Origin: Sphingopyxis sp.
GTDB taxonomy: Bacteria > Pseudomonadota > Alphaproteobacteria > Sphingomonadales > Sphingomonadaceae
Assembly (NCBI GenBank): GCA_016463225.1
Contig: JAEMRT010000006.1
Location: 32,917-96,916 of the forward strand
DNA length: 64,000 nucleotides
Reading direction: 5' to 3'
This document shows, one piece after another, positions 4,210 to 44,493 of this stretch. A model generated the notes under the pieces. That model did not search any database, was not told where the DNA came from, and was given only the letters and a program-made list of their open reading frames with translations. The first letter of the stretch is position 1. Every line of letters begins with the position of its first letter. Both the position numbers and the translations under genes were made by a program.

Positions 4210-5619
4210 ATGATCCTTCGCAATATCCTCACCATGGCCTCGGCGCTCGCGCTTGCCGCCTGCGCGGTCGGTCCCAACTATGCCGAGCCCAAATCTGCGT
4301 CGGCTTCCGTCGCGACCGGACCGTTCGTCTCGGCAAACAGCCCTGCCGTGTCGCTCGCTCCGGTCGCGGGCGACTGGTGGCGGCTCTACAATGATCCCGT
4401 TCTCGACGGGCTGGTCGGCGACGCGCTCGCCGCGAACACCGACGTCCGAGTCGCGGTCGCTAATATCGCCCGGGCGCGTGCATCGCTTCGCGGCGCGCGC
4501 GCCGACCGTCTGCCGCAGGGCGAGATCGGCGCCGGCGCCAACTACGGCCGCAGTCCCGAAGGCCAGCGCCCGGCCGGCGCCGACCGTGAGGATTGGGCCG
4601 TCGATGTCGGCCTGAACGTCTCGTATGAAGTCGATCTGTTCGGCCGCGTCAGCCGCTCGATCGAGGCCGCGCGCGGCGATACTGCTGCCGCCGAAGCCAA
4701 TGCCGACGCGGTGCGCGTGATCGTCGCCGCCGATACGACGCAAGCTTATGCCGATGCTGCCTCGGGGGCCGCGCGGCTCGACGTCGCGCGCCGCATCGTC
4801 GGCCTGCTCGACCAGCAGGTGAAGCTCACCGACCGGCGCAAGGAAGTCGGGATGGCGACGGGGCTCGACCTCGCGCGCATCGCGACGCTGCGCGACCAGC
4901 GGTCTGCCGACATCCCTTCCATCGAGGCCGAACGGCAGGCGGCTTTGTTTCGCCTCGCGACTCTGACCGGTCGTGCCCCCGCCGCGTTGCCCGCCATCGC
5001 TGGCGATCGCAACATCAGCCTCGAGATCACCGACCCGATCCCAGTCGGTGATGGGGCGGCGCTATTGAAGCGCCGTCCCGATATTCGCGCCGCCGAGCGC
5101 CGCCTTGCCGCCGACACCGCGCGCATCGGCGTCGCGACCGCGGACCTCTATCCGCGCATCACGCTCGGCGGGTCGGCGGGCTCGACCGGATCGGGCTTCG
5201 GCGATGTGTTCGGCGGCGGACCGATCCGCTGGCTGCTCGGGCCGCTTCTCAACTGGGCGTTCCCCAATCAGGAACCCGCGCGCGCGCGAATCGCGGCGGC
5301 CGAGGCCGATACGCAGGCGTCGCTCGCCGAATTCGACGGCACCGTGCTGCGCGCGCTCGAGGAAACCGAGACCGCGCTGTCGTCCTACGCGCGAGCGCTC
5401 GAACAGCGCCAGGCGCTACGCGCCGCGCGTGACCAGGCCGAACGCGCGGCAAGGATCGTGCGCGCCAAGCGGCAGGAAGGTGCGTCGGATTCGCTCGAAT
5501 GGCTCGACGCCGAACGCACCTTTGCCGAGACCGAGGCAGTGCTCGCGGCGCAGGACGGGCAGATTTCGCGTAAGCAAATCGCATTGTTTCGAGCACTAGC
5601 GGGCGGTTGGTCGACCTAG
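4210..5619 (+). CDS. Efflux transporter outer membrane lipoprotein (NodT/OprM family)
   Basis: Lipobox-like LALAACAVGPNYAEP; ALLKRRPDIRAAERRLAADTARIGVATADLYPRITL. Confidence 0.93.
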   Translation: MILRNILTMASALALAACAVGPNYAEPKSASASVATGPFVSANSPAVSLAPVAGDWWRLYNDPVLDGLVGDALAANTDVRVAVANIARARASLRGARADRLPQGEIGAGANYGRSPEGQRPAGADREDWAVDVGLNVSYEVDLFGRVSRSIEAARGDTAAAEANADAVRVIVAADTTQAYADAASGAARLDVARRIVGLLDQQVKLTDRRKEVGMATGLDLARIATLRDQRSADIPSIEAERQAALFRLATLTGRAPAALPAIAGDRNISLEITDPIPVGDGAALLKRRPDIRAAERRLAADTARIGVATADLYPRITLGGSAGSTGSGFGDVFGGGPIRWLLGPLLNWAFPNQEPARARIAAAEADTQASLAEFDGTVLRALEETETALSSYARALEQRQALRAARDQAERAARIVRAKRQEGASDSLEWLDAERTFAETEAVLAAQDGQISRKQIALFRALAGGWST

Positions 5620-5652
5620 TACATAAGGCAGGATTGCAGCCAATCCGTTCAT

Positions 5653-5673
5653 GCCCGCCAACGGGCCGTTTTT
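5653..5673 (+). terminator. Putative Rho-independent terminator after efflux operon
   Basis: gcccg-ccaa-cgggc stem followed by cgttttt. Confidence 0.55.
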
Positions 5674-6006
5674 ATCGGCGATGCTTCCGACCGCGCCAAA
5701 TGGTTACATTTGGTCGACGTGCCAGAACATAGTTGCTCCCAGCGGCCTGAACTCAACGCCGCGATTGATGGTGCTCGTCGCACCTTCGGTTGGTTCGAGG
5801 GGGGCATTGGCAGTCCCTAGCCGAGCGAGATGAATTAACCCTAATACAGGACGACCACGGTCCTAGATCGGAATGTCGCCATACGCCGAGCTAGGCTGCC
5901 GAGGATGTTCGCTGTTCACGGTTCGGGGCTAGAAGCAGACCGTCTGCTACCGGCCAGTTTACGCCGGGGGACTTTGGCAATATCGTCGAGCCGCGGTCCA
6001 CAAGCC

Positions 6007-37153: not shown

Positions 37154-38176
37154 TCACCCTTTCGTCACCTCGACAACAGTCGCCCCGTTCGACCTTTCGC
37201 TGGTTCGAAATCCAACGCCGGTAAACCTATCGATCAATGCCGCCGCAGTCAGCGTGTGCTGGCTCAGTTTTACCGTGGTAAATGCACCCCGCCGCGCAAT
37301 GGCAAAGGGCAGTAGCAGTTGATCCTGCAAATAGGGGCCGGCGAAAGCCTCGCAGGCGAGGTAGCCTGCCATACGCTTGGCCGCCGTCTTAGCAAGGCGC
37401 TCCGCCGGGACGCCGATCTTGCCGAACGCTGAGATGATCTCGGTGACGTTCTCGAAAGCCGCCTCAAGCAGCAGCGCGTTGCCCGGCCCGTGGTCGGCAG
37501 GAAGCTGGCGCGTTGCGAAGGCATCGTCGGGCCAGTCAGCCAAAACCTTGCGCGCGCTTTTCAGCTCGCGGTCGGCTACATCGAAGGGGATGCCGGCGAC
37601 AATCGCCGTCGCTTGTACGCTGCGCAGCGCCCCGCGATCGATGCAGTCGACCGGACGAAGCGGCGCGGGAGCAATATCGACCTCAATCCGGCCGCCGCCC
37701 CGCGGGAAAAAGCCGTGGCGGATCAGCCGCGCCGACACGGCCGGACCCATGCGGTTGACCACCGGCAGCAGCGTGCGTTCGAGGAATTCGAACGGCGGGG
37801 CAGCCATCGCATGCGTTCCGCCCTCGATGACGAGACGCGACGGAGCGTCGGCCAGCATCAGCGGCACGAGGATCGTCTGGAGAACCAGTCCGGTGCTGCC
37901 CGCCGTGCCCACCGCGAAATGATAGTCGCCGGGCGTCACGCGACCGGGGCGGAAGGAAATGCTGTTCGATCCGACGGCCAGCCCGCTGCATTCGGCCGCG
38001 CCGATCACGCACGCCGCTTCGATCGCGGTCACATGCTGGCGCATGAGCCCCGGCTTCTCGCGCCCGCGCCGGATGTTTTCGATCGTGAAGGGCTCGCCGG
38101 TCAGCAGCGAAAGCGCGCAAGCATAGCGCAGCACCTGTCCCCCGCCTTCGCCTTCAGAGCCGTCGATGATGATCAT
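37154..38176 (-). CDS. rtcA: RNA 3'-terminal phosphate cyclase
   Basis: MIIIDGSEGEGGGQVLRYACALSLLTGEPFTIENIRRGREKPGLMRQH; HGFFPRGGG. Confidence 0.95.
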   Translation of the reverse strand: MIIIDGSEGEGGGQVLRYACALSLLTGEPFTIENIRRGREKPGLMRQHVTAIEAACVIGAAECSGLAVGSNSISFRPGRVTPGDYHFAVGTAGSTGLVLQTILVPLMLADAPSRLVIEGGTHAMAAPPFEFLERTLLPVVNRMGPAVSARLIRHGFFPRGGGRIEVDIAPAPLRPVDCIDRGALRSVQATAIVAGIPFDVADRELKSARKVLADWPDDAFATRQLPADHGPGNALLLEAAFENVTEIISAFGKIGVPAERLAKTAAKRMAGYLACEAFAGPYLQDQLLLPFAIARRGAFTTVKLSQHTLTAAALIDRFTGVGFRTSERSNGATVVEVTKG

Positions 38177-38955
38177 TCTTCGTCTACCAGTTCCAGAAAC
38201 AAGTCGTTTGCGTCTGCCGCAAAAGCTTCGATTGGCGGTCGCGCCGGCACCTCGCCGGCACGCGCCAACTCGTCCGCGATCAGCGCGTCGATCTCGGGCA
38301 CGCGTGCGATCGGTCCCGCCTCGCGCGTGTCCGCCTTCATCGCCACCAGCTGCTCGATCTCTTCGATGGCCGAAGACGAAAGGTCAGCCTCCGCCATCAG
38401 CTGCTGCAACTGCATCGGCGGCCGGCGGGATGGATCGCGCCGCAGTACACGGATCGCCAAGGCAGGGCGCAGCGCATAGAAATAGCGCTTTACCGCCACT
38501 TCGCTCTCATCCTGCAACCAGCGCGCAATCGCGGTCCGGCCAAGCTTGGCATAATGCAGCGCAAAACCATTCGGATCGAAGTGGCGGTCCTTCAGTTCAG
38601 CCATCCGCGCGATCACGGGATGGGCATTGCGATACTCGATCGGCGATCCGATCCATTCGGAGAGCACCGAATTGTTGCGCAGCATTAACCCCAGCGCCTT
38701 GCGGATATCCCAGCCGTTCAAGTCGATCTCGTCGACGATCGGCCGCTTGATCACGTCACGCACCGGGCTGAGCGCCAGATAGTCGCGGCGCGGCCGGACA
38801 TAGAGAAAGCGCACGTCATAATCGCTGTCGGGCGACGGGAAACCCCACGCCCGCGACCCCGATTCGATCGCGAGCAACAGGCGCACGCTGTCCTCCGCCT
38901 CGACGGCGGACAGGCGGGTTTCGATTTCGCGGCGCACGGAAGCCCCAATGGTCAT
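38173..38955 (-). CDS. Nucleotidyltransferase of the RlaP type (RNA-repair-associated pol-beta family)
   Basis: IESGSRAWGFPSPDSDYDVRFLYVRPRRDYL; ATGA overlaps on both sides within the rtc operon. Confidence 0.85.
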   Translation of the reverse strand: MTIGASVRREIETRLSAVEAEDSVRLLLAIESGSRAWGFPSPDSDYDVRFLYVRPRRDYLALSPVRDVIKRPIVDEIDLNGWDIRKALGLMLRNNSVLSEWIGSPIEYRNAHPVIARMAELKDRHFDPNGFALHYAKLGRTAIARWLQDESEVAVKRYFYALRPALAIRVLRRDPSRRPPMQLQQLMAEADLSSSAIEEIEQLVAMKADTREAGPIARVPEIDALIADELARAGEVPARPPIEAFAADANDLFLELVDEE

Positions 38956-39374
38956 GTCTCCAACTTTCTCAATTCCGTTCCATCGGGATCCGCGATGAAC
39001 AAATAAGGTGTCCAGCAATCGGTCATCTTCGTGCCAATCTCTGCCTTGCAGGATTTGCAACGAATATTCGGGCCACCACATCCGGAAAGGCCACAGCATC
39101 CGCCGAGACGGCGAGAATCCCCGACCAACTCGGTAAAGGCCTCGACGTCGTCGGGATTGGTCCAAATCTGCGCTACGAAATCGAGCGAATTGGGTTCGTC
39201 GAACGATGTGATGAATGGCTTATCGGATTTATAGGCCGTACCATGATCGGTCACCGGCTGCTGGTCGGCAAGCGTCGGCGCTTCGACCGCCGGATCCTTC
39301 GTCGAAAGAAAATTCAATTCATTCGACAATGGCGCGCCGCAAGTTGTGCAAAATAATTGGCCCTTCATCGTCAT
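38952..39374 (-). CDS. Small Cys-rich hypothetical protein (zinc-ribbon-like) in the rtc operon
   Basis: FCTTCGAPL; RLGGCCGLSGCGGPNIRCKSCKAEIGTKMTDCWTPYLF; ATGA overlap with rlaP-like gene. Confidence 0.75.
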   Translation of the reverse strand: MTMKGQLFCTTCGAPLSNELNFLSTKDPAVEAPTLADQQPVTDHGTAYKSDKPFITSFDEPNSLDFVAQIWTNPDDVEAFTELVGDSRRLGGCCGLSGCGGPNIRCKSCKAEIGTKMTDCWTPYLFIADPDGTELRKLET

Positions 39375-39387
39375 ATCCCCGATAGCG

Positions 39388-39413
39388 GCGTGAAGGGGAT
39401 CACCCCTTCACGC
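39388..39413 (-). promoter_or_regulatory. 11-bp perfect hairpin with the rtcB stop codon in its loop
   Basis: Minus strand GCGTGAAGGGG-TGAT-CCCCTTCACGC. Confidence 0.6.
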
Positions 39414-40626
39414 ACACCACCTGCTTCAGCGTATGAACGATCTCGACGAGGTCGGCCTGCGCCGCCATCACCGCCTCGATCGGCTTATACGCCTTTGGCG
39501 TTTCGTCGATGACGCCTTCGTCCTTACGGCATTCGACGCCAGCGGTGTCAGCGATATGCTCGTCGAGCGTGACGAGCTTTTTCGCCGCGGTCCGGCTCAT
39601 AACCCGGCCCGCACCATGGCTGCAGCTATCGAAGGATTCCGGGTTGCCGAGCCCGCGCACGATGAAGCTTTTTGCCCCCATCGAGCCCGGGATGATCCCC
39701 AGCGTCCCCCTCGCCGCGCGCACCGCCCCCTTGCGGGTGACGAGCACATTCTCGCCGAAGTGGTTCTCGCGCGTCACATAATTGTGATGACAGTTCACCG
39801 CTTCCATCTCGGCCTCGAACGGCTTGGCGATCTGGCGCCGGAGCGCCGCGATCACATTCGCCATCATCATCCGCCGGTTCAGCGCCGCAAAATCCTGCGC
39901 CCAGCCGACCGCCTCGACATATTCGTCGAAATGGTCGGTCCCTTCGGGGAAGTAAGCAAGATCCTCGTCGGGCAGGTTGATGAACCATTTGCGCATGTCC
40001 TGCTTCGCCAGTTCGATGAAGTAGGTGCCGATCGCATTGCCGACGCCGCGCGACCCCGAATGGAGCATCACCCACACCCGCGCATCCTGATCGAGGCAAA
40101 GCTCGATAAAATGGTTGCCCGTTCCGAGCGTCCCCAGATGCACGAGGTTGTTGGTGTTCTTCAGCCGCGGATGCTTCGCGACGAGATGCCCGAAGCGTTC
40201 GGCGAGCGTTGCCCACGCGTCGACGATCGCCGGGGGCGGATCGCCCCACGAACCGGTGTCGCGCTTGCCGCGCCCGACCGAGCGGCCGTGCGGCACCGCC
40301 TGCTCGATCGCACTGCGGATGCCTTCCAGCGTATCGGGCAGGTCGTGCGCCATCAGTGAGGTGCGCGCCGCCATCATGCCGCAGCCGATGTCGACGCCGA
40401 CCGCAGCCGGGATCACCGCACCCTTGGTCGGGATCACCGATCCGACGGTCGCGCCAAGGCCGACATGCACGTCGGGCATCGCCGCGACATGCTTGAACAC
40501 GAACGGCATCCGCGCGGCCTTCGCAAGCTGCGCGCGGGCGCCATCTTCGACCGGGACGCCGCGCGTCCACATCTTGACCGGGCGTCCGCCCTCGACATTG
40601 AGCACTTCGTAAGTCGTCTGGGTCAT
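39400..40626 (-). CDS. rtcB: RNA-splicing ligase RtcB
   Basis: MPDVHVGLGATVGSVIPTKGAVIPAAVGVDIGCGM; HSGSRGVGNAIGTYFIELAKQDM; SHGAGRVMSRTAAK; AAGGAGG ribosome binding site. Confidence 0.96.
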   Translation of the reverse strand: MTQTTYEVLNVEGGRPVKMWTRGVPVEDGARAQLAKAARMPFVFKHVAAMPDVHVGLGATVGSVIPTKGAVIPAAVGVDIGCGMMAARTSLMAHDLPDTLEGIRSAIEQAVPHGRSVGRGKRDTGSWGDPPPAIVDAWATLAERFGHLVAKHPRLKNTNNLVHLGTLGTGNHFIELCLDQDARVWVMLHSGSRGVGNAIGTYFIELAKQDMRKWFINLPDEDLAYFPEGTDHFDEYVEAVGWAQDFAALNRRMMMANVIAALRRQIAKPFEAEMEAVNCHHNYVTRENHFGENVLVTRKGAVRAARGTLGIIPGSMGAKSFIVRGLGNPESFDSCSHGAGRVMSRTAAKKLVTLDEHIADTAGVECRKDEGVIDETPKAYKPIEAVMAAQADLVEIVHTLKQVVCVKG

Positions 40627-40654
40627 CGCTGACCTCCTTCTCTTCATTCATAGG

Positions 40655-40758
40655 TGCCGGCGACGAGTTTTGGCGAGACATTCCGGATTTCTCCGGCGCG
40701 GATTCGAACCGCTAGCCTTTCGGCCTACCCGATGTAGTCCCACCGGCATTCGCCAGCA
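40655..40758 (-). ncRNA. Y-RNA-like ncRNA 3 (minimal form: Y stem, GAAA hairpin, T-arm, GAAA-capped hairpin; no D-arm)
   Basis: Stem TGCTGGCGA/TCGCCGGCA; T-arm GCGGTTCGAATCCGC; CCGGA-GAAA-TCCGG; conserved GGACTACAT and AATGTC. Confidence 0.75.
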
Positions 40759-40768
40759 TGTTTGATAG

Positions 40769-40904
40769 AGGGTCACGGCGACGAGGATTGAAAAGACATT
40801 CGTGCTCTACCAGACTGAGCTACCGCTCGTTTCCGACCGGGCGGGATTCGAACCCGCGACACCGACATTATCAATGTAGTCCTTCCGGCATTCGCCGTGA
40901 TCCT
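40769..40904 (-). ncRNA. Y-RNA-like ncRNA 2 with permuted tRNA-like module, acceptor-like stem capped by GAAA
   Basis: Stem AGGaTCACGGCGA/TCGCCGTGAcCCT; GCGGGTTCGAATCCCGC; CCGGTCG-GAAA-CGAGCGG; D-arm GCTCAGTCTGGTAGAGC. Confidence 0.82.
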
Positions 40905-40918
40905 GTTGGCTCTTCATT

Positions 40919-41080
40919 CGAAGTGTCACGGCGACGAGGTTTAGCAAAGACATTGCCCCTAAGGGCGCCGCTCTATCCGCTAAGCTACAGGCCCGCATCA
41001 TGGTGGACCCGGCGGGATTCGAACCCGCGCCTGCATCGTGACAGGATGTAGTCCTTCCCGGCATTCGCCGTGACACTTCG
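40919..41080 (-). ncRNA. Y-RNA-like ncRNA 1 with permuted tRNA-like module
   Basis: Perfect 16-bp stem CGAAGTGTCACGGCGA/TCGCCGTGACACTTCG; T-arm GCGGGTTCGAATCCCGC; acceptor-like CGGGTCC+ACCA pairing GGGCCTG; D-arm GCTTAGCGGATAGAGC. Confidence 0.85.
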
Positions 41081-41083
41081 TAG

Positions 41084-42631
41084 TCATACCTCCACTTCGT
41101 TGACGATCTGGACCCAGTCGCGCGTTTCGCCAGCAGCGAAGCGCGCCATTGCGCCAAAGACCGCGTCGGTGAAACCACCGACATTCATGATATCCTTCCG
41201 GTCCCTGGCCTGCGTGGTGCCATAGGGCTGGATGTCGATGCAGATCAGCTTCGCGCCCGGGTTACGGACCTTCAGCTTCGTCCACTCGTTCATCGTCGCC
41301 GTGGCGCCACGCCGGGTCGGATCGACCCAGCTTTCATTGTCCGAAACGATCACAACGGTATCGACCTTCGCGCGCTCGGCGTTGAGCCGGGCGAGCGGAG
41401 CCGAGACATTTGTCCCGCCGCCGCCGATCGCTGCCAGCCGCGCGGCGTTGACCGCAAGGCGTGCCTTGGGATCGAGCGCCATGTCGACGACATCGACTTC
41501 GAACGGCATCACCCGCGCCGACCGGTTGGTGCGCAGCATCGCCGCCGCGACCAGCGCCGCGATGTCGATGCAGCGGACCTTCGAGGTCGCGCCCTTGCGG
41601 TGGCCGGTCGCTGCCGAGCCCATCGAGCCCGACACGTCCGGACAGACAATGATGTTGCCCGCCAGCACCGGAACCGTTGCAAGCGACAGTTCGAGTGCCT
41701 TTTCGAGCGATGCCTGGACCGCTAGCGGAACCGCGTCGCCGACCTGATCGAGCGCGATCATCAGGTGATAGGGCGCGGGCTTGATCTTCGCGATCGCCTC
41801 CGCATCCGCCAGCCGTGCCGCGACCGCTTCGGTCACCCCCGCCACGTCGAACGCACCATTGCGCGCCAGCGTGTTGAGGTTCATGCGCAGCGCCTGCCAG
41901 CCCATGCGAACCGCAAGATCGCCCCACTGTTCCGCCGAGAGCGGAAATGCGGTCAGCCATTCGAACGGCACCGGGGGGAGCGGCCCCGAGGGGTCGCGCT
42001 TCCAGGCTTCGAACGCTGCGATCTCTGCCGGCAGCGCAGCGACTTCATAGGGCTTGCCGATCAGCCAGCCGTAGAAGGCGCGTCGCTCCGCCGAAGCCGG
42101 CGCCGGGTGGACCATGCGAACGATGTCGGCGAGGCTCGGGTCGTTGCCCGTCGCTGCCGTCATCAACTGGCGCATCGAAGCCGTTTCCAGCCATTGACGC
42201 ACCAGCCGCTTCGGCCGCGAGCCGAGCGAACGGCGCCCGATCTGGCCCGACCGCATGATCTGCACGAAATTGCGCAGCATGCGGCCGTTATCGATCACGC
42301 GGCCGAATACCGGCACGGCGAGATCGGGATCGGCGACGGTCAGATAAGCGGCGAGCAGCGCCGGCATATCCTTCATCGCACCCGACTGGCGCGCATAGAT
42401 CGCCGCCTTGGCAACAAACCCCGGCGACACCGCTTGCGCCGCCGACAGGACATCGGCGAGCTGCGCGTCGGCGCCCGAATAGAAGCCATCCGACAGCGTG
42501 CCGGTCGCGGCCAGCTGTGCAAGCTTCGCTTCGGCGCCATAGGCATAGGCCGCGCCGCCGGCTTCATTCACCGTGTCGGTGCGCGGCAGGAAGCGCGAGA
42601 GCGCCGTGGAAAACAGGGACTTGTTGGCCAT
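41084..42631 (-). CDS. rsr: TROVE domain protein, Ro60 ortholog (Rsr)
   Basis: HEAT-like TROVE region AAIYARQSGAMKDMPALLAAYLTV; vWA-like IIVCPDVSGSMGSAATGHR; adjacent Y-RNA-like genes and rtcB. Confidence 0.92.
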   Translation of the reverse strand: MANKSLFSTALSRFLPRTDTVNEAGGAAYAYGAEAKLAQLAATGTLSDGFYSGADAQLADVLSAAQAVSPGFVAKAAIYARQSGAMKDMPALLAAYLTVADPDLAVPVFGRVIDNGRMLRNFVQIMRSGQIGRRSLGSRPKRLVRQWLETASMRQLMTAATGNDPSLADIVRMVHPAPASAERRAFYGWLIGKPYEVAALPAEIAAFEAWKRDPSGPLPPVPFEWLTAFPLSAEQWGDLAVRMGWQALRMNLNTLARNGAFDVAGVTEAVAARLADAEAIAKIKPAPYHLMIALDQVGDAVPLAVQASLEKALELSLATVPVLAGNIIVCPDVSGSMGSAATGHRKGATSKVRCIDIAALVAAAMLRTNRSARVMPFEVDVVDMALDPKARLAVNAARLAAIGGGGTNVSAPLARLNAERAKVDTVVIVSDNESWVDPTRRGATATMNEWTKLKVRNPGAKLICIDIQPYGTTQARDRKDIMNVGGFTDAVFGAMARFAAGETRDWVQIVNEVEV

Positions 42632-42739
42632 CGTCCAACTCCTTCGAAATCATTCCGGATCCTCGGGGGCGGCCAGCCCATTCCGGCCGCCCCTTCGTTC
42701 CACTGTGCCGGGAGACGTGAGCCCCGACGCAAACATCGT

Positions 42740-42757
42740 TGCAGAAGACGTGCCAAA
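42740..42757 (-). promoter_or_regulatory. Sigma-54 (-24/-12) promoter for the rsr-Y-rtc operon
   Basis: Minus strand TTTGGCACGTCTTCTGCA; GG-N10-GC spacing, near consensus TGGCACGNNNNTTGCW. Confidence 0.8.
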
Positions 42758-42800: not shown

Positions 42801-42897
42801 GTAATAAGATTATAAATCTTCTTGAGATGTGGAAACGAGGCGTTAGACCTATATGATTATCTTGTATCGTAATTTATCCTAGAATATAAGTGTGATC

Positions 42898-44493
42898 ATG
42901 AAGCCCACTACCGTCATCGGATTTCTCGGCTCGACTCTCGATGCCGCCAAATTCGGACCCTCGCGCTGGAACAAGTGGCGGCCGACGGTCAGCATCTGCA
43001 TGCAGGAAGACTTGCGGGTCGATCGCTTCATCCTGCTGCACGGCCGCTATCACAGCCGTCTCGCTGAATATGTGGCCGATGATATCCGTGACATATCGCC
43101 CGAGACTGAGGTCGTCCCACAACTCCTCGACTTCGACGACGCCTGGGATTTCGAGGAAGTTTATGGAAAGCTGCTCGACTTCGCGCGCGCCTTTCCCTTC
43201 GACCCCGACAATCAAGATTATCTGGTCCACATCACGACCGGCACCCATGTCGCGCAAATTTGCCTCTTTCTCCTGACTGAGGCGCGCTATCTGCCCGGGC
43301 GGCTGCTCCAGACCCAGCCGCAGCGTGGCGCACCGCAGCCGATCGGGACGTGGAGCGCCATCGACCTCGACCTGTCGCGTTACGACAGCATCGCGACGCG
43401 CTTTGCCGAGGCGAGCGCCGAGAGCACGAGCTTTCTGAAAAGCGGCATCGAGACGCGCAATGCCGCCTTCAACCGAATGATCGAGGAGATTGAGCAGGTC
43501 GCGGTACGCAGCCGCGCGCCGATCCTGCTGATGGGTCCGACCGGCGCCGGCAAGAGCCAGCTCTCGCGCAAGATTTACGAGCTCAAGAAGCTGCGCCACC
43601 AGATCGCGGGCCCTTTCGTCGAAGTTAATTGCGCGACGTTGAAGGGCGACAGCGCGATGTCGGCGCTGTTCGGCCACCGCAAGGGCGCTTTTACCGGCGC
43701 GGCACAGGATCGCCCCGGCCTGCTCAAGTCGGCCGACAAGGGGTTGCTATTCCTCGATGAAATTGGCGAGCTTGGCCTCGACGAGCAGGCGATGATCCTG
43801 CGCGCGATCGAGGAAGGACGCTTCCTTCCCGTGGGCGCCGACAGCGAAGCGAAGAGCGAATTCCAGCTGATCGCCGGCACCAACCGCGACCTCGTCCGCG
43901 AGGTTGTCGCCGGTCGCTTCCGCGAAGATCTGTTCGCTCGCCTCAACCTGTGGACCTTCAGCCTGCCGGGGCTTGCGGCGCGCCGCGAGGATATCGCCCC
44001 TAATCTCGACTACGAGCTGGAGCGCTTCGCCGAACGCGAAGGGGCACGGGTCACCTTCAACAAGGAGGCGCGCGACAAATTTTTGAGCTTTGCCGAGAAC
44101 TCGGCCGCGCTGTGGAAAGGCAATTTCCGCGACCTTGCCGCCAGCGTCACCCGCATGGCAACGCTCAGCGCGACAGGGCGCATCGATTCCGATGCGGTCG
44201 CCCTCGAGACGGGCAGGCTGCGGTCGCTTTGGTCGACCGACGATGCTCAGGGCGATGCGCTCGACCATTTGCTATCGTCCGACCAGCTCAAACGGATCGA
44301 TCCCTTCGATCGGGTTCAGCTCGGCTATGTTGTCGATATCTGTCGTCAGAGCGCTAGCCTTTCGGCGGCGGGGCGTTCGCTGTTTTCGGCGTCGCGCGAA
44401 GAGCGTCGATCAACCAACGATGCGGACCGGTTGCGGAAATATCTCGCGCGCTTCGATCTCGACTGGAGCATTGTCACGGCAAGCAGCGATTAA
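42898..44493 (+). CDS. rtcR: Sigma-54-dependent transcriptional activator RtcR
   Basis: N-terminal KPTTVIGFLGSTLDAAKFGPSRWNKWRPTVSICMQ (RtcR/CARF-like); GPTGAGKSQL Walker A; GAFTGA motif. Confidence 0.93.
   Translation: MKPTTVIGFLGSTLDAAKFGPSRWNKWRPTVSICMQEDLRVDRFILLHGRYHSRLAEYVADDIRDISPETEVVPQLLDFDDAWDFEEVYGKLLDFARAFPFDPDNQDYLVHITTGTHVAQICLFLLTEARYLPGRLLQTQPQRGAPQPIGTWSAIDLDLSRYDSIATRFAEASAESTSFLKSGIETRNAAFNRMIEEIEQVAVRSRAPILLMGPTGAGKSQLSRKIYELKKLRHQIAGPFVEVNCATLKGDSAMSALFGHRKGAFTGAAQDRPGLLKSADKGLLFLDEIGELGLDEQAMILRAIEEGRFLPVGADSEAKSEFQLIAGTNRDLVREVVAGRFREDLFARLNLWTFSLPGLAARREDIAPNLDYELERFAEREGARVTFNKEARDKFLSFAENSAALWKGNFRDLAASVTRMATLSATGRIDSDAVALETGRLRSLWSTDDAQGDALDHLLSSDQLKRIDPFDRVQLGYVVDICRQSASLSAAGRSLFSASREERRSTNDADRLRKYLARFDLDWSIVTASSD

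Follow-up and report, generated by a model that had tools for sequence, protein, structure and literature searches.

The rsr-rtc locus

The window analysed here is a stretch of 64,000 nucleotides from Sphingopyxis sp. It contains an RNA-repair operon with the gene order rsr, three Y RNAs, rtcB, rlaP, rtcA, and a divergent rtcR gene:

37154..38176, minus strand: rtcA, RNA 3'-phosphate cyclase (Pfam RTC, 5.9e-71)
38173..39165, minus strand: rlaP, RNA-repair nucleotidyltransferase family, start codon uncertain (Pfam RlaP, 4.1e-75)
39400..40647, minus strand: rtcB, RNA ligase (Pfam RtcB, 1.2e-127)
40654..40756, minus strand: unit 3, Y RNA lacking the D-arm (RF02553, 36.6 bits; minimum free energy (MFE) fold, z -2.1)
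40772..40898, minus strand: unit 2, YrlA-type Y RNA holding the sealed hairpin (RF02553 match; MFE fold)
40925..41071, minus strand: unit 1, open ACCA-type Y RNA (RF02553, 36.3 bits; same type in 19 other loci)
41084..42631, minus strand: rsr, Ro60 orthologue (Pfam vWA_Ro60, 1.5e-15; weak TROVE match)
42739..42756, minus strand: sigma-54 -24/-12-like site TTGGCACGTCTTCTGCAA upstream of rsr (found by eye; two departures from the consensus)
42892..44493, plus strand: rtcR, sigma-54 activator of the RNA-repair operon (Pfam RtcR, 1.8e-81; Sigma54_activat)

The candidate sigma-54 site upstream of rsr is consistent with control of the operon by RtcR. A scan with a stricter sigma-54 pattern produced two matches, about the number expected by chance; neither of them is upstream of rsr, and the site at 42739-42756 is not among them. 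The operon also contains a reading frame of 140 amino acids with cysteines (38952-39374, minus strand), which overlaps the long form of rlaP and had no match in a Pfam search.

Unit 2 is a YrlA-type Y RNA

The tRNA-like part of unit 2 is read on the minus strand as follows:

40841..40857, minus strand: T-arm, GCGGG-TTCGAAT-CCCGC, GCGGGTTCGAATCCCGC (sequence; fold)
40823..40840, minus strand: acceptor-like helix CCGGTCG/CGAGCGG with GAAA cap (sequence, fold, covariation)
40840-40834, minus strand: helix strand CCGGTCG (sequence)
40833-40830, minus strand: GAAA tetraloop (sequence)
40829-40823, minus strand: helix strand CGAGCGG (sequence)
40822-40821, minus strand: TA linker from the acceptor-like helix to the D-arm (sequence)
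40804..40820, minus strand: D-arm, GCTCAGTCTGGTAGAGC, that is GCTC-AGTCTGGTA-GAGC (sequence, RF02553 alignment, fold)

A preliminary description of this region, which listed a T-arm, a 7-bp helix with one G/G mismatch, a GAAA cap and a D-arm on the minus strand, is exact in all these elements. Six of the seven pairs in the acceptor-like helix are standard, and the fourth (40837/40826) is G/G. In the closest relative, locus L023, CGACCGG stands in place of CGAGCGG and all seven pairs are formed.

All 114 positions of the Rfam model RF02553 (YrlA) are matched by the 127 nucleotides of unit 2, with a score of 78 bits (E-value 2.6e-16). This is above the gathering score of 69, whereas units 1 and 3 are below it. 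In the covariance model alignment and in the fold the Y stem is formed by the 5' and 3' ends, and the T-arm, the acceptor and the D-arm are inserted into it. The unconstrained MFE fold of 40772-40898 consists of the Y stem, the T-arm, the GAAA-capped helix and the D-arm; its energy of -48.1 kcal/mol was equalled by 4 of 200 shuffled sequences. Unit 2 adjoins the Ro60 orthologue gene rsr, and the same is true in relatives. Given the RF02553 score above the gathering score and the operon context, the hairpin very probably serves as the effector module, with a sealed acceptor, of a bacterial Y RNA that belongs to the YrlA type and is encoded in an RNA-repair operon of the RtcR type. Unit 2 thus adds one member to a described RNA family whose members normally have a closed acceptor. 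The earlier reading of the hairpin as a tRNA mimic was right as regards the permuted order and the sealed acceptor helix, but it missed the YrlA family, where the closed hairpin belongs to the RF02553 consensus.

A chance hairpin is ruled out by the RF02553 match, by the comparison of the MFE fold with shuffles and by covariation across relatives. An ordinary tRNA or tRNA pseudogene is ruled out by the permuted order of the arms, by covariation and by ARAGORN, which calls no tRNA in the window. It is likewise highly improbable that the three units are decayed or rearranged tRNA genes devoid of Y RNA function. Their T- and D-arms are indeed almost those of true tRNAs, and unit 1 resembles a tRNA acceptor; however, in addition to the permuted order and the negative ARAGORN result, all three units have a Y stem, the helix covaries, and the site adjoining rsr is conserved.

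Other Y RNA topologies

For comparison, 80 loci with a relative of Rsr were collected, and Y RNA units were extracted around T-arms. Several topologies were observed besides that of unit 2. In unit 3 of the window, a GAAA-capped hairpin stands on either side of the T-arm (40725-40714 and 40696-40683, minus strand). Many relatives have a four-arm type, in which no tRNA arm is missing, the acceptor is short and capped, and the Y stem joins the body at the D-loop. A hairpin occupies the anticodon position, and the variable loop is usually AGGTC. This type, seen at L030:6208-6289 and in 34 similar stretches, is absent from the window. In an alignment of 31 four-arm sequences, 98.4% of cells are paired, and all five pairs of the hairpin at the anticodon position have changes on both sides. 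One further type, found in L030 (about 5740-5890) and L051 (about 5560-5690), comprises a T-arm, a very short closed piece (for instance CGCCGGAACG) and TAGCTTAAGG. An upstream AAAGC and a hairpin could complete its D-arm and anticodon arm.

Conservation of the capped helix

The segment of 35 nucleotides was aligned in 19 distinct sequences, that is, the window and 18 relatives. In this alignment 98.2% of cells are paired, as compared to 39-52% in slid controls, the segments having been chosen for at least 6/7 pairing, which favours structure. Changes on both sides of a pair were observed in 37 cells, against 11.6 in shuffles that keep the relatedness among sequences, and all seven acceptor pairs have such changes. 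The preliminary description had named the absence of a capped helix from homologs as the observation that would speak against it; in the relatives the helix is conserved and covarying, and it is mostly capped.

Units whose D-arm is closed locally provide 100 distinct acceptor segments, and 53 of these are capped by tetraloops. The remaining segments are of the ACCA type or have loops of other lengths. The 53 distinct caps comprise 25 GNRA loops, 20 YNMG loops (UUCG, CUCG and similar) and 8 others, whereas the frequencies expected for loops of four random bases are 3% for GNRA and 6% for YNMG. The helix under the cap is 5 to 10 bp long across these units. Thus, the closed cap is conserved and the identity of the loop is not, as YNMG is nearly as common. 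Comparison of the sequences indicates that selection acts to preserve an acceptor end that is closed and stable, not one particular loop sequence, GNRA being one of two common solutions.

A different possibility is that the GNRA loop docks specifically, on a tetraloop receptor in another part of the RNA or on a protein, and is selected as GNRA. GNRA does account for almost half of the caps in units of the same type as unit 2, for 33 of 40 in the four-arm (D-loop-inserted) type and for 33 of 58 in the group lacking the D-arm, and unit 3 of the window bears two GAAA hairpins. In the type of unit 2 itself, however, more than half of the caps are YNMG or neither class, and the variable length of the helix below the cap would shift the docking position. 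Docking is therefore an unlikely role, and the GNRA-receptor function raised earlier is disfavoured, since YNMG caps almost equal GNRA caps in number. As the loop class alternates over a conserved helix that always retains some stable cap, the cap is better explained as a generic clamp than as a ligand of a dedicated GNRA receptor.

The Y stem, formed by the 5' and 3' ends, carries a circularly permuted tRNA-like body made of the T-arm, the acceptor helix and the D-arm. On this basis the sealed unit could work as follows. The Y stem would hold Rsr, and the tRNA-like end would tether an effector such as PNPase, as published for other species. The tetraloop (GAAA here, UUCG-type elsewhere) would serve as a stability clamp whose identity matters little, and the capped module may resemble the T/D/acceptor face of tRNA for tRNA-binding proteins. 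It follows from the topology that the acceptor of unit 2, its helix being closed by a loop, should have no free 3' end for processing or charging. Without a CCA end, the sealed module is expected to escape maturation, charging and trimming. The comparison speaks for Y RNAs as copies of the tRNA body that avoid the fate of a tRNA.

The open unit 1 and its relatives

As the preliminary description stated, unit 1 has ACCATGATGC (41004-40995) at the place where unit 2 has its cap. Its acceptor region is organized as follows:

40988..41011, minus strand: acceptor region (sequence; sub-threshold match to RF04321)
41011-41005, minus strand: 3' acceptor strand CGGGTCC (sequence)
41004-41001, minus strand: ACCA (sequence)
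41000-40995, minus strand: spacer TGATGC, 6 nt (sequence)
40994-40988, minus strand: 5' acceptor strand GGGCCTG, then the D-arm (sequence)

In tRNA numbering, the two strands form seven pairs including G1-C72, G2-C71 and G3:U70 (G3 at 40992, U70 at 41007), and they are accompanied by A73 and CCA, so that ACCA occupies the exact place of the A73-CCA end of a tRNA. G3:U70 with A73 is the alanine identity, and the acceptor of unit 1 agrees with the alanine-type sequence in G3:U70, A73 and CCA. Among 47 tRNA genes located in the genome with RF00005, only the two tRNA-Ala genes have G3:U70. The fold of unit 1 is no better than that of shuffled sequences (z -0.43). Its acceptor is identical in 13 of 14 positions to that of a tRNA with the CAU anticodon (probably tRNA-Ile2) from the same genome. 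Origin from tRNA-Arg, hinted at by the D-loop, was rejected, as the acceptor identity is 10/14, compared to 13/14 for the CAU tRNA.

Units of the ACCA type number 20, including unit 1 of the window. G3:U70 was found in 15 of these 20 and in 0 of 20 capped units with a 7-bp helix (Fisher test, 8e-7, uncorrected for shared descent). Among loci whose Rsr proteins are 70-80% identical, acceptor identity is 0.87 in ACCA-type units and 0.51 in capped ones. The comparison thus indicates that the capped helix conserves pairing, whereas the open acceptor conserves sequence. A locus from Rhizobiales with 59% Rsr identity has a unit of the ACCA type with identical G3:U70 and ACCA. ACCA and the 5' acceptor strand are separated by a spacer whose length ranges from 1 to about 45 nt. 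In three loci it contains a hairpin repeat GCTTCGCTGCGTGAGCGC (exact in L035:5935 and L039:5998, variant in L043); the repeat also occurs elsewhere in L036, L041, L043 and L061. Sealed and CCA-bearing paralogs are adjacent in 11 of the examined loci. No ACCA unit was seen in the closest relative L023 or in the Sphingopyxis loci L024-L026, and viral contigs, when scanned for the ACCA-type core, contained none.

One possibility is that the array consists of graded tRNA decoys. The sealed units 2 and 3 would only tether, whereas RNase P and 3' nucleases would open unit 1, in the manner of a permuted tmRNA, to yield a two-piece RNA with a genuine A73-CCA end that AlaRS could charge. This extends the preferred explanation of unit 2 to unit 1 and, as far as unit 2 is concerned, is compatible with it. 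It is suggested by the 7-bp acceptor of unit 1 with A73, CCA and a G3:U70 pair, which among the 47 tRNA genes located in this genome is confined to tRNA-Ala, by the distribution of this pair between ACCA-type and capped units, and by the conservation of the acceptor sequence, extending to G3:U70 and ACCA in the Rhizobiales locus. The spacer, in turn, varies in length and accommodates an inserted repeat hairpin. A parallel exists in the same genome, whose permuted tmRNA has the same layout. Enzymes of tRNA processing cleave transcripts of permuted tmRNA (PMC11915505), and a G-U third acceptor pair determines the recognition of tmRNA by AlaRS (PMC3985003). By analogy, this shared layout, the cleavage and the G-U determinant make processing and charging of unit 1 plausible. 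However, G3:U70 is absent from 5 of the 20 ACCA-type units, L023 and L024-L026 have no visible ACCA unit, and unit 1 neither folds better than shuffles nor reaches the gathering score of RF02553. Moreover, the fit could be inherited from an ancestral tRNA: given the 13/14 acceptor identity to the CAU tRNA, descent from a tRNA is a simpler account of much of unit 1. Graded decoys are thus a tentative and rather doubtful reading of the array.

With similar reserve, the proposal may be generalized to alphaproteobacterial rsr loci. These would combine a sealed YrlA with an open YrlA that is cut to a two-piece Y RNA with A73-CCA and G3:U70 and can be alanylated while bound to Ro60, a further set of four-arm capped units being present in relatives. 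Sealed and CCA-bearing neighbours form a natural matched pair for studying possible maturation or charging of Y RNAs. The pair also bears on the question why one operon holds Ro60, Y RNAs and tRNA repair enzymes.

Comparison with known systems

The genome has a true tmRNA elsewhere, in permuted form (G000:C107:9665-9887, 132.8 bits), and thus unit 1 is ruled out as the tmRNA of this genome. Its match to RF04321 (tmRNA_permuted) scores 26.8 bits, below the cut-off of 47. Nevertheless, unit 1 shares with the permuted two-piece tmRNA of Alphaproteobacteria (RF04321) the T-arm, the acceptor strand, CCA, the spacer, the 5' acceptor strand and G3:U70, and the arrangement CCA-spacer-G1 is that of the permuted tmRNA of this genome. 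Unlike the permuted tmRNA family, unit 1 has a full D-arm, and no tag reading frame was identified in it. Red algae and archaea have circularly permuted tRNA genes in which, as in unit 1, the 3' half precedes the 5' half; their intervening sequence has 1-74 nt (PMC3978253). However, in unit 1 the Y stem replaces the anticodon region, which precludes decoding.

The layout of the operon in the window is close to rsr-yrlBA-rtcBA of Salmonella, where damaged tRNAs activate RtcR (PMC7790460). YrlA of Salmonella, like unit 2, adjoins rsr within the rtcBA operon. The YrlA RNAs (RF02553, Salmonella YrlA, structure 6CU1) share with unit 2 the Y stem and the permuted succession of the T-arm, the closed acceptor-like hairpin and the D-arm. 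According to PMC8394870, DusA and TruB modify the tRNA-like domain of YrlA, and YrlA links Rsr to PNPase as a tether; PMC11472068 describes the superposition of 6CU1 on tRNA with a circular permutation. The RF02553 consensus has a 6-bp acceptor and a consensus loop of 3 nt, whereas unit 2 has 7 bp and a GAAA cap. Unlike the known YrlA systems, the locus in the window contains three tandem Y RNAs, the sister units of unit 2 having other topologies.
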